Origin: Sulfurimonas paralvinellae
Lineage (GTDB): Bacteria; Campylobacterota; Campylobacteria; Campylobacterales; Sulfurimonadaceae
Length of the DNA: 64,000 bases
Direction of reading: 5' to 3'
Assembly (NCBI RefSeq): GCF_014905135.1
Contig: NZ_CP041406.1
Location: 372,001-436,000, forward strand
Below are positions 17,782 through 42,750 of the stretch, one piece after another; position 1 is the stretch's first letter; each line of letters opens with the position of its first letter. Both the position numbers and the translations under genes were made by a program. The notes beneath the pieces are model-generated. The model made no database searches, was not told where the DNA came from, and saw only the letters and a list, made by a program, of their open reading frames with translations.

Positions 17782-17810
17782 TCTGTGTAATTAAAAAAGT
17801 TGTAGTTGTT

Positions 17811-17892
17811 CCCTAACCTCTTATTTTTCTTATTTTCGCTGGTTTTTACGGAGCGTAGCGGAGTAAAAATCCAGTGCAGCGATTTGTTATGT
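17811..17892 (-). repeat. attC-like hairpin (cassette recombination site)
   Basis: On the minus strand: R'' ACATAAC, spacer, L'' region TCGCTGCACTGG, a long central stem-loop whose arms include TTTTTAC and GTAAAAA, L' region CCAGCGA, and R' GTTAGGG. The 18-nt A-rich spacer between L' and R' is longer than usual. The folded element could also terminate transcription of the gene it follows. Confidence 0.6.
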
Positions 17893-18761
17893 ATTTTCTG
17901 TCTCTGGGAGAAATTGTTTCCATTGTTCTTTGACATAGTCAACGAACCCGTCTACTCCCTGTGCTTGACACACGGAAGCTAATTCACGGCCTACTTGTGT
18001 GAGCAAAACTTTTCCGATTATAAGTTTATTATTTTCCTCATTTTTCATGAGCAATGGCAATGGCTGTCCATAATAAGAGACAGTGAATTTTTTTGGCAAA
18101 CCTTGCCGGATAAATCCAGAAAGGTCATTAAACTGAATGAGGCCAATGCTGTCTAAATGACTCAAAGTGCTAAAGTTGATTCCGATATCATTGTAAATGG
18201 AAGCTTGAGTATCAAATATTAATGGGGTGAAGTCGCCAAATATCCAACCAAAACGGCATATTGCCACAAATAGCTCTGCATCTTTTTTGTCTAGGTCTCC
18301 AAGAAAGTTTACTGTTCTTTTCGAGTAGCTTCCGGGTGAGTTGGATTCACCAGCTAAAACACTTGCCCATAGATCTTGCATTTCAGAATCAGAAACGATT
18401 CGTGATTTGTCAAAAAAGTTTGTGACCCAATCATCATCCATCTTGCTGGGATCTGACTTATCCTCTAGCTTAGGGAAAGCTTTCTTTGTTATCTGCTCCA
18501 TGTTCTCTTGACGATTTGCTTCTTCTTCAACAAACCGGTGCATTGCGCGGTGATGTAAATCAGTAATTTCAATTTCTGATTTTGCTTTTATTAGATTTGC
18601 TTCAGCTTCTGCCTTGGCAACCCGTTTTGTTTGCCATGGTTCAAAAACACCACCGATTGCACTCGAAACTTTCTTTATCAATGTATCGGCAGGCTTGGAT
18701 AGCTTTCCAAGATTTACGATAGACATGGAGTTGTCATCTGCCATTTTGTCTCCTTACATAA
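17817..18761 (-). mobile_element. Putative integron gene cassette carrying a DUF2806-like gene
   Basis: The region has the layout of a single inserted integron cassette. Reading the minus strand: core site G^TTATGT (18762-18756), then AAGGAG and the start codon within 20 bp, one gene, its TAA stop embedded in ACATAAC (17892-17886), a hairpin, and a terminal core-like GTTAGGG (17817-17811). ACATAAC is the exact reverse complement of GTTATGT, which is what the outer arms of a circularised cassette's attC require. Cassette length is 945 bp. No integron integrase is seen within this window, so it would be an orphan (SALIN-like) cassette. Boundaries are inferred from the recombination rule. Confidence 0.6.
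17887..18744 (-). CDS. DUF2806-like protein, cassette-borne
   Basis: A 285-residue soluble protein of unknown function, matching the pattern I associate with DUF2806. It has an Ala/Glu/Lys-rich helical N-terminal third (KRVAKAEAEANLIKAKSE), then EEEANRQENME, MDDDWVTNFFDKSRIVSDSEMQDLWASVLAGE, KRTVNFLGDLDKKDAELF, and a C-terminal LTQVGRELASVC. AAGGAG precedes the ATG. The stop codon is part of the attC-like site, and the gene is opposite in strand to argJ and isolated from the following carbonic anhydrase gene. DUF2806 genes are often found in accessory DNA; a defence role is conceivable but not shown by anything here. Confidence 0.7.
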   Translation of the reverse strand: MADDNSMSIVNLGKLSKPADTLIKKVSSAIGGVFEPWQTKRVAKAEAEANLIKAKSEIEITDLHHRAMHRFVEEEANRQENMEQITKKAFPKLEDKSDPSKMDDDWVTNFFDKSRIVSDSEMQDLWASVLAGESNSPGSYSKRTVNFLGDLDKKDAELFVAICRFGWIFGDFTPLIFDTQASIYNDIGINFSTLSHLDSIGLIQFNDLSGFIRQGLPKKFTVSYYGQPLPLLMKNEENNKLIIGKVLLTQVGRELASVCQAQGVDGFVDYVKEQWKQFLPETENT

Positions 18762-18762
18762 C
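18756..18762 (-). other. Cassette core site (GTTATGT)
   Basis: On the minus strand GTTATGT lies 11 nt upstream of the DUF2806-like start codon with AAGGAG directly after it. It is complementary to ACATAAC at the far end of the gene and marks the proposed 5' boundary of the cassette (cut after the first G). Confidence 0.55.
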
Positions 18763-18825
18763 TATTTATTCAAGGAACACTTTATCACAAAATCTCTTAA
18801 AATCAACAAATAAAGAAACATCTCA

Positions 18826-18859
18826 AATGTTTCATATTTGTATAAAAATATGAAACATT
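18826..18859. repeat. Perfect 14-bp inverted repeat, 6-nt loop
   Basis: AATGTTTCATATTT (18826-18839) and its exact complement (18846-18859) are separated by GTATAA. The surrounding 18763-18983 contains no gene I can support. The repeat may be the terminator of the flanking carbonic anhydrase gene, an operator, or a remnant of the cassette insertion region; it lacks a G/C-rich stem and a clear T-run. Confidence 0.6.
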
Positions 18860-18983
18860 AAAATAAAACTGGTTTGCTTTTAAAGAAATGATTATTATGC
18901 TTAAAAAGAAGATGTCCTTTTAAGCCTGATATATTAATTAAAAGGATAAAGTTTTGACTTCATGAACAGTAATTTAGGTTTAT

Positions 18984-40602: not shown

Positions 40603-42750
40603 ATGAACGAACATAAAATATCGGTGCATGAGGACGTTTTACTTGATACCTTTGTCCTTTTTACCAAGCTTTTTCATAAGCCCTTTACGAAAGAGGCTCT
40701 TTTAGCAGGGCTTCCTATCCATGATTCTCAAAAACTTTTCTCCAAAGATAGTTCCAAATCACTTTTTTCCCGCGTAGCAGCACGCGCCGGTTTGAAATCA
40801 ACACTTATCAAACGCTCAATTGAAGATATGCTCTCATTGCATCTGCCGGCTATTTTACTGCTAAGTAATGATAATGCCTGCATATTGGAAAAATTTAATG
40901 ATGATAAAACGCAGGCAAAGATTATTTACCCTGAGGGTGACGGTCTTGAACAATGGGTTAGTGTGCATGATCTCGAAAAAGAATATTTGGGTTTTGCCTA
41001 TATATTAAAAAAAGAGTTCGAGTATGACAAAAAGAGTTCACGAACACTGCAGCGTAAACAAAAACATTGGTTTTGGAGTACATTAAAGCTCTCTGTTCCA
41101 ATCTACAGAGATGTGTTGATAGCATCATTCCTTATCAATCTCTTTGTTCTGGCAACACCGCTTTTTACTATGAATGTTTATGATAGAGTTATTCCAAACA
41201 ATGCCGAAGAGACTTTGATGGTCTTTACCATAGGTATAGTTCTTGTCTATGTACTGGATTTTTTTCTAAAATTCACCCGTTCGTATCTTTTGGAATTAGC
41301 GGGTAAAAAAAGTGACATTATTATGTCCTCAATTATTTTTGAAAAAGTGCTTGATCTGAAGATGTCACAGCATCCGCCATCAGTCGGCTCTTTTGCAAAC
41401 AATCTGAAAGATTTTGAGTCAGTCCGTTCTTTTCTTACTACAGCAACCATGACAGCCGTTATCGATCTGCCGTTTGCGATTATTTTTCTTGCTGTTATCT
41501 ACTATATCGGCGGTGTACTGGTATTTGTTCCCTTAGTGACTATCTTTTTGATTCTTCTGTATGCATTGCTTATTCGCAAGCCATTGCGTGAGAGCATAGA
41601 AGCCTCTTATGAGGCAAGTGCCAAGAAAAACGGGATACTCATAGAAACCTTGCAAAATATCGAAACAGTCAAAACGATGCGAATGAATGGTAAAAAACAG
41701 TGGGAGTGGGAAGAATCTACGGGTGAGATTGCCGAGAAAAATCTTAAATCACGTCTGCTTTCTGCTTCCATTCCAAGTGTAACAAATCTTTTTGTACAGT
41801 TAAATACTGTCTTTGTCGTTGTCTTTGGGGTATATCTTATCAAAGAGTTTGAGTTGACTATGGGCGGGCTCATTGCCATTGTCATCTTGACATCACGAAC
41901 AGTTGCTCCTATCGGACAGGCAGCTGCACTGATCTCAAACTATTCCGATGCAAAAACAGCCTATGATACGCTCGACGAAATCATCTCACGTGAGGTTGAA
42001 CGTCCTGCTGGCCAGGAGTTTGTGGAACGTCCGAAATTTCAGGGAAAAATAGAGTTTAAAGACGTCAGTTTCAACTACCCTGGAACGGAAGTTCCGGCAC
42101 TGACAAATGTCAGTTTTGTCATTAATCCCGGTGAAAAAGTGGCCATAATCGGTCGAATAGGTTCGGGGAAAAGTACGATCGCCAAGTTGATCTTGAAACT
42201 GTATGAACCGACAAGCGGAACAATTCTCATCGACGATATTGACATCGCCCAGATAGATCCGGCAGATCTGCGCCGGTTTATCTCTTATGTACCGCAGGAT
42301 GTCCATCTCTTTAAAGGAACCATCAAAGACAATATCGTCTCTTCCGAACAGCATCCTGATGTCGGAGATGTCATCTATGCGGCACAGGTAAGCGGTGTTG
42401 AAGACTTTGTACGAATGCATCCAATGGGGTATGATATGCCCATTGGTGAACGAGGTGCAGGACTTTCTGGCGGACAGCGACAGAGTGTCGGTATTGCCCG
42501 TGCATTGATGCAGGAGAGCTCGATTATGGTCATGGATGAACCGAGCAACTCGATGGATCAAACGACAGAAAAAAATCTGCTTGACAGGCTAAAAGTAGAG
42601 CTAAAAGATCAGACAGTCGTGATAATTACACAGAAATTAGGACTTTTGGATATGGTTGAGCGTGTCATCGTGATGCATAATTCCAAAGTACTGCTTGATG
42701 ATAAAAAAGAGACAGTTGTCAAACAACTCAGCGGAGTTTCCAATGGCTAA
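40603..42750 (+). CDS. Type I secretion ABC transporter (LapB/HlyB-like)
   Basis: A 715-residue inner-membrane exporter. Residues about 1-140 form a C39-peptidase-like domain without a recognisable catalytic Cys, the form used for docking large unprocessed substrates. About six membrane helices follow (160-440), then the nucleotide-binding domain with Walker A GRIGSGKST (about 517), signature LSGGQRQ (about 621) and Walker B VMDEPSNSMD. GGTGG precedes ATG 40603. Its stop overlaps the HlyD start by 8 nt. Its likely substrate is the giant adhesin encoded downstream. Confidence 0.94.
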   Translation: MNEHKISVHEDVLLDTFVLFTKLFHKPFTKEALLAGLPIHDSQKLFSKDSSKSLFSRVAARAGLKSTLIKRSIEDMLSLHLPAILLLSNDNACILEKFNDDKTQAKIIYPEGDGLEQWVSVHDLEKEYLGFAYILKKEFEYDKKSSRTLQRKQKHWFWSTLKLSVPIYRDVLIASFLINLFVLATPLFTMNVYDRVIPNNAEETLMVFTIGIVLVYVLDFFLKFTRSYLLELAGKKSDIIMSSIIFEKVLDLKMSQHPPSVGSFANNLKDFESVRSFLTTATMTAVIDLPFAIIFLAVIYYIGGVLVFVPLVTIFLILLYALLIRKPLRESIEASYEASAKKNGILIETLQNIETVKTMRMNGKKQWEWEESTGEIAEKNLKSRLLSASIPSVTNLFVQLNTVFVVVFGVYLIKEFELTMGGLIAIVILTSRTVAPIGQAAALISNYSDAKTAYDTLDEIISREVERPAGQEFVERPKFQGKIEFKDVSFNYPGTEVPALTNVSFVINPGEKVAIIGRIGSGKSTIAKLILKLYEPTSGTILIDDIDIAQIDPADLRRFISYVPQDVHLFKGTIKDNIVSSEQHPDVGDVIYAAQVSGVEDFVRMHPMGYDMPIGERGAGLSGGQRQSVGIARALMQESSIMVMDEPSNSMDQTTEKNLLDRLKVELKDQTVVIITQKLGLLDMVERVIVMHNSKVLLDDKKETVVKQLSGVSNG

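Follow-up and report, generated by a model that had tools for sequence, protein, structure and literature searches.

In the window, by which we mean the whole stretch of 64,000 nucleotides analysed here (G000:C1:372001-436000), about 1.2 kb separate two genes that we take to be argJ-like and gamma-carbonic-anhydrase-like, and hold one open reading frame of 285 aa on the minus strand (Table 1). The original prediction had read this stretch as a single integron gene cassette on the basis of several short strings (GTTATGT, ACATAAC, two hairpin arms and GTTAGGG), all of which are present, with the stop codon lying within ACATAAC. The reading frame fills the unit from a start 11 nt past the core to a stop codon within R'', and GTTATGT and ACATAAC are exact complements (7 of 7). 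Complementarity of core and R'' is expected when a circular cassette enters at an attI site. GTTATGT occurs nine times in the window against 10.1 expected, and GTTRGGG twice against 7.0 expected; because GTTATGT is as common as chance, the case for a cassette needs more than strings.

Table 1 Features of the cassette locus, in window coordinates
Feature	Position	Strand	Basis or remark
Left neighbour, presumed argJ-like gene, 392 aa	16603..17781	+	Landmark for comparing relatives
Short repeat AAAGTTGTAGTTGT..CCTAACC..CTTATTTTT	17796..17836	+	Second copy at G000:C1:708722-708760
GTTAGGG, supposed second core	17811..17817	-	19 nt from the CCAGCG arm; probably no core site
Truncated attC: R'', AAAT spacer, L'' CGCTGCACTGG, stem, loop; L'/R' half missing	17839..17892	-	Viral-contig attC comparison
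ACATAAC, R'' of attC, stop codon TAA (17889-17887) inside	17886..17892	-	Sequence read
Cassette gene, DUF2806 (PF10987), 285 aa	17887..18744	-	Profile match; related to TIGR03899
AAGGAG, putative Shine-Dalgarno-like motif, 5 nt 5' of ATG	18750..18755	-	Sequence read
GTTATGT, first core (attI GTT + cassette ATGT)	18756..18762	-	Sequence read; 11 nt 5' of the ATG at 18744
attI proper, conserved 75 bp ending TTCCTTGAATAAATAGTTAT, extended -10-like TGTGATAAAG inside	18758..18832	-	Model R1
attI with leader, ends on core GTT (18762-18760)	18760..18947	-	intI-attI profile, same-genus integrons
Right neighbour, presumed gamma-carbonic-anhydrase-like gene, 174 aa	18984..19508	-	Landmark for comparing relatives

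The DUF2806 gene and its relatives in cassettes

Searches against Pfam identified the encoded protein as a member of DUF2806 (PF10987; 142.3 bits, E=2.6e-41, over the cut-off), and its scores against TIGR03899 (92.7 bits, cut-off 155.65) and Abi_alpha (19.3 bits, E=0.0012, cut-off 29) remained under the respective cut-offs. The protein matched no family in PADLOC, and structure prediction from three sequences reached a mean pLDDT of 35. Together with the cassette setting, the sub-threshold similarity to Abi_alpha may hint at phage defence, and at nothing firmer.

The closest homologue, from Alteromonas sp. KUL49 (L010, 76% identity), has attC sites both before and after the gene, and that of a Bathymodiolus symbiont (L011, 67% identity across the whole alignment and 63% in its best segment) has one after it. 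A more distant homologue (L012, 41%) contains stops in the given frame, and no attC arms were found in the stretch examined around it. Within the genus, DUF2806 was detected in three of 135 genomes, in every case with an attI-like site upstream of it; in G012 and G021 the gene lies 1.1-1.4 kb downstream of that site, between two attC sites. The homologues of Alteromonas, the Bathymodiolus symbiont, G012 and G021 accordingly reside in cassettes. Because the window protein is nearer to its gammaproteobacterial counterparts (76% and 67%) than to those of the same genus in G012 and G021 (46% and 45%), transfer is likely, and the comparison fits the originally suggested origin in a gammaproteobacterium; judged from these sequences, the cassette was probably acquired horizontally. 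The G+C content of the gene (39.6%) shows little contrast to that of the window (42.7%). Homologues of DUF2806 also occur in 310 plasmid records, all with less than 60% identity; 306 of these plasmids are predicted to be conjugative, and the records derive mostly from Escherichia, Salmonella and Klebsiella.

The two boundaries of the unit

We constructed a long profile from 23 intI-attI regions of same-genus integrons, and positions 18947-18760 (minus strand) of the window aligned to the last ~196 of its positions (369-565) with 48.0 bits. In a shuffling comparison with this profile the attI-plus-leader stretch scored 47.8 bits, the highest of 1000 dinucleotide shuffles reaching 5.6 bits. Model R1, a sequence model made from 21 sites in relatives, all in the genus and with the window left out, returned the window attI (43.3 bits, E=2.3e-12) and nothing else in the 64 kb at E-values up to 10; across the whole genome the site had E=7.9e-11. 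When the relatives' stretches were shuffled (250 kb, ten times), the maximum was 9.7 bits with a profile made from the R1 alignment and 8.8 bits with the long profile, compared with 38 and 35 matches, respectively, of at least 20 bits in the unshuffled stretches. In the three genomes outside the genus that carry the homologues L010-L012, R1 had no match at E<=0.01.

A DNA search of the insert against the 135 genus genomes gave some match in 66, the own genome included. Many of the matches listed cover the stretch that starts at GTTATGT and extends in the direction opposite to the gene; others are confined to the end of argJ. Among the loci read, four (L053, L054, L060 and L066) have the attI stretch next to a divergent integrase gene. 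The start of intI in the profile lies ~70 positions past the end of the window match, where the window already has the carbonic-anhydrase gene. By these sequence comparisons, the DUF2806 gene sits directly on a genuine attI of the genus and is inserted at its core, a feature that the original prediction had missed. With the attI of the genus as its 5' boundary, the locus is best understood as what remains of an integron platform, as opposed to a stray insertion. The attI and the cassette setting of the relatives are the parts of the case that lie clearly beyond chance, and both bear out the reading as a single integron cassette. Transcription of the gene from the cassette promoter within attI probably persists; a simple sigma-70 promoter scan listed no promoter at the proposed position, the extended -10-like TGTGATAAAG.

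At the 3' boundary, the attC-like hairpin described earlier stood in part. Both of its arms, CGCTGCACTGG and CCAGCG, are present at the locus, and R'', L'', stem and loop can be recognised; the L'/R' half is missing, leaving no complete arm pair and thus no complete attC of the order R'' L'' ... L' R'. The 82-nt stretch as originally drawn folded with z -0.96 (35 of 200 shuffles as good), shorter pieces up to the stem with z -2.6 (54 nt; 3 of 200) and z -1.9 (61 nt; 8 of 200). Folding energy discriminates little here, because a comparable attC that is intact also reached only z -1.7 (11 of 200). An arm-pair scan found no complete attC at the locus, its sole candidate in 4 kb lying inside argJ. 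The attC covariance-model check that had been proposed ended insignificantly: R2, a model of the nearest attC kind, gave 14.1 bits (E=0.098) with the L'/R' pairs broken and was outscored by a chance match at 41911, in what is a weak test, as R2 also missed the attC sites of L010 and L011.

In uncultivated viral contigs, attC sites read by eye at, for example, L180, L210 and L234 continue past the stem with an L' resembling TGAGC and, after a short spacer, with GTT; these come from 59 pattern places listed, most of which are not attC and none of which matched the complete-site pattern. The window departs from this pattern right after CCAG (17839). As the attC is truncated, GTTAGGG, 19 nt past the arm, is probably accidental, and its former reading as a second core has the arm scan, the viral-contig comparison and R2 all against it. 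The attC stretch had no match in a DNA search of plasmids, and Rfam contained nothing relevant near the locus.

The short repeat in the 3' flank has the consensus AAAGTTGTAGTTGT..CCTRACC..CTTATTTTT over two intergenic places, and its copy at 708.7 kb is followed by a weak attI-like site. This site (G000:C1 ~708.7 kb), the third in the genome, scored 18.7 bits with R1 (E=2.7e-5 over 16 kb) and 0.8 bits with the long profile, and is absent from the whole-genome R1 list at E<=0.01. We had considered the repeat as an outer integron boundary and dropped it, with two copies in the genome, one of them in the window, and no match to the intI-attI profile.

Integrases, solo attI sites and the locus in relatives

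An integrase had been reported as absent from the window, and our search extends this to the genome, in which no IntI exceeded the curated cut-off (best match 59.8 bits, cut-off 265). Eight IntI-family matches were rejected as integron integrases: matches of this kind, none over the cut-off, occur in all 14 control genomes too, and on that ground we assign the eight to other tyrosine recombinases. No IntI fragment was detectable beside the window attI, and R3, a model of native-type attC, had no match in the own genome at E<=0.01.

A match to argJ was found in 96 genomes, the own included, and the loci of 30 were examined, namely our own and those of 29 relatives (best argJ identity 87.5%). 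In the relatives, argJ and the carbonic-anhydrase gene are at most 58 nt apart in 15 loci and 146-1404 nt apart in nine; in the remaining five, the carbonic-anhydrase gene was not found in the stretch examined. No IntI, no DUF2806 and no convincing attI match was present at any of the 29 loci; the insert of the window is therefore peculiar to its lineage, as far as sampled. The expectation that flanks lacking the insert should join as G^TTAGGG failed, GTTAGGG occurring on neither strand in any of the 15 near-adjacent junctions. The 125 stretches that surround attI or intI sites elsewhere contained neither of the two neighbour genes.

Integrons had been thought unusual in the phylum, which does not hold for this genus: of its 135 genomes, 52 have an IntI scoring above the curated cut-off, and 58 have a match at E<=1e-40, a level that none of the 14 control genomes reached. 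We examined 30 IntI loci and parsed 27. In 21 of these the core precedes the start of intI by 248-282 nt; of the six others, two show a variant core, and in four the upstream sequence is just 101-168 nt long. R1 gave 362 matches in 112 of the 135 genomes at E<=0.01, the 21 training sites being within the genus. Among these 112 genomes, 57 are without IntI at E<=1e-40 and 55 have both; of the remainder, three have IntI only and 20 neither. The two thus tend to occur together (odds ratio 6.4, p=0.001), in species that are not independent of one another. At the level of the order, 71 of 248 genomes and 28 of 73 genera have an R1 match at E<=1e-5, and 58 of these 71 genomes belong to other genera.

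Sixteen near-complete genomes contain 72 R1 matches, of which 42, including the window, were read. An adjoining IntI, in some cases broken, was found by tblastn (E<=1e-4) at six sites, a short remnant at three and none at 33; at some of the 33 (e.g., L166) the first intI codons are visible by profile. Arms of attC numbered 28 in 105 kb downstream of the 42 sites vs one in 88 kb upstream, with some stretches overlapping. At E<=0.01, R3 matched 54 times in 44 stretches, a count that includes 13 training sites and two sites counted on both strands. To the right of the attI core at L146, L147, L152, L158, L159, L170, L172 and L177 we observed a G+C-rich attC-like hairpin of 108-158 nt without an open reading frame, often the first after attI and sometimes found again later in the stretch.

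That intI can be lost in place is evident, for another site, from the comparison of G068 (L140) with G130 (L177). The two have a common flank of 95% identity that extends over the last ~50 nt of intI; G130 encodes IntI aa 1-322 and G068 has no IntI, and the attI of G068 heads 15 attC sites over 23.6 kb (255.7-279.3 kb; G068:C1:255680-281722, partly L140). Such a clean deletion was seen in this pair only. At L150/L174 and L155/L159 the flanks are likewise common, but other DNA separates the flank from the solo attI, and at L146 in G086 only IntI aa 299-322 are left beside attI. The own genome contains a second, degenerate attI relic beside recN (L138, G000:C1:936500-942700; R1 20.2 bits, E=0.0012; long profile 32.0 bits). 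Between recN and attI, intI is whole in G011, in pieces in G055 and absent from the own genome, so the lineage probably had an integrase once. An attC-like site of 137 nt lies ~1.3 kb downstream of the attI at L138.

Similarity between solo sites of the same genome stops at recurrent positions, ~-84 for L155/L156, L147/L150, L161/L163 and L162/L163, and ~-134 for L142/L144, L141/L142 and L168/L169. Trimming to a functional core by deletion would suffice for these ends, movement of attI-bearing units being a possible alternative. At L144, L149, L152, L153, L154 and L162 the left ends in the profile recur at positions 276-290, near the first intI codons; the intI start codon lies at ~300 in the profile, where the gene has an A-rich tract. 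These left ends may mark a hot spot of deletion, or the match may have been extended spuriously by A-rich sequence.

Origin of the locus and comparison with known integrons

Taken together, the 1.2 kb that separate the carbonic-anhydrase gene from argJ are very probably the remnant of a decayed integron platform that kept one cassette and lost its intI. A circular, gammaproteobacterial-type DUF2806 cassette would have been integrated at the window attI by an IntI of the lineage's own. Afterwards, intI and ~70 bp of its leader would have been deleted, much as in the in-place loss in G068/G130, and another deletion would have removed the 3' half of attC plus any further cassettes, whereby the DUF2806 gene would have become fixed at the locus. 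Several observations count against a relic platform: the incomplete attC, the lack of an IntI fragment beside the attI, of native-type attC in the genome at E<=0.01 and of a listed promoter in attI, the puzzling repeat in the 3' flank, the restriction of clean in-place loss to one pair, the absence of both neighbour genes from the 125 stretches mentioned above, and the finding of intI at this locus in 0 of the 29 relatives. The last of these also speaks for the attI and cassette having been inserted as one piece (a cassette with a shortened attI and a promoter) at a non-canonical site by an IntI acting in trans, with intI never present there. The abundance of attI-like sites, often several per genome, and the recurrent ends at ~-84 and ~-134 are also in keeping with such insertion. 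Cassettes with a shortened attI are, moreover, known in mobile integrons, according to the accessible text of PMC12901181; these Delta-attI cassettes of class 1 and 2 integrons resemble the window in having a shortened attI away from intI, whereas their attI piece lies downstream of the gene and replaces attC, and that of the window lies upstream and retains its leader. We nevertheless consider insertion as a piece improbable: the left end of the window site is at -188, at neither of the two recurrent ends, no core-like site was identified at the left ends, and L140/L177 represent plain in-place loss of intI.

Capture of an orphan cassette at a random chromosomal (attG-like) site without attI would account for the core complementarity and the cassette relatives, yet it is contradicted by the 188 bp upstream that are homologous to the attI region of the genus, and we regard it as very remote. 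An ordinary horizontally acquired gene flanked by accidental core-like 7-mers would suit the individually common 7-mers, the ordinary fold of the 82 nt and the insignificant covariance-model match. With the attI homology contradicting it and homologues in a cassette setting in Alteromonas, the Bathymodiolus symbiont, G012 and G021, this chance origin is practically negligible.

In the accessible part of PMC8618304, Campylobacterota are among the phyla listed with integrons, and a table in PMC10295459 assigns a single In0 and a single CALIN to Sulfurimonas autotrophica. The chromosomal integrons of Sulfurimonas have the same attI as the window, there beside IntI in same-genus genomes. Having neither an intI adjoining its attI (complete integron) nor an intI without attC (In0) nor two or more attC without intI (CALIN), the window, with a single truncated attC, falls outside these three classes as the accessible text of PMC10295459 defines them. 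It is well established that intI decays and is lost (PMC2426708 and PMC12444791). As in the window, cassettes outlast the loss or inactivation of intI in the inactivated integrons of Xanthomonas (PMC12444791) and are left without intI in CALIN elements, whose origins are treated in PMC8618304 (accessible part); in contrast to both, the window keeps an attI and has a lone cassette with a broken attC. Sites of attI are poorly described outside class 1 integrons, and IntegronFinder misses those outside this class, as stated in the available text of PMC9024848.

Integrons of Campylobacterota and the decay of intI were thus already known, and the most interesting by-product of this analysis is the presence of attI-like sites, apparently without intI and several per chromosome, across the order. 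A literature search, with most subscription papers outside its reach, found nothing on dispersed attI relics in this group. The attI-plus-promoter modules of Campylobacterales might conceivably act as dispersed landing pads for one IntI in trans, the window being an occupied pad, an idea that we hold only tentatively and consider rather unlikely. If true, it would describe a distributed integron with several pads per genome, in service now or formerly, many without an adjoining intI. Independently of this idea, a profile of one conserved attI detects integron relics that have neither intI nor two attC sites, and would allow one to trace the loss of intI and the fixation of cassettes and to test the use of several attI sites in trans.
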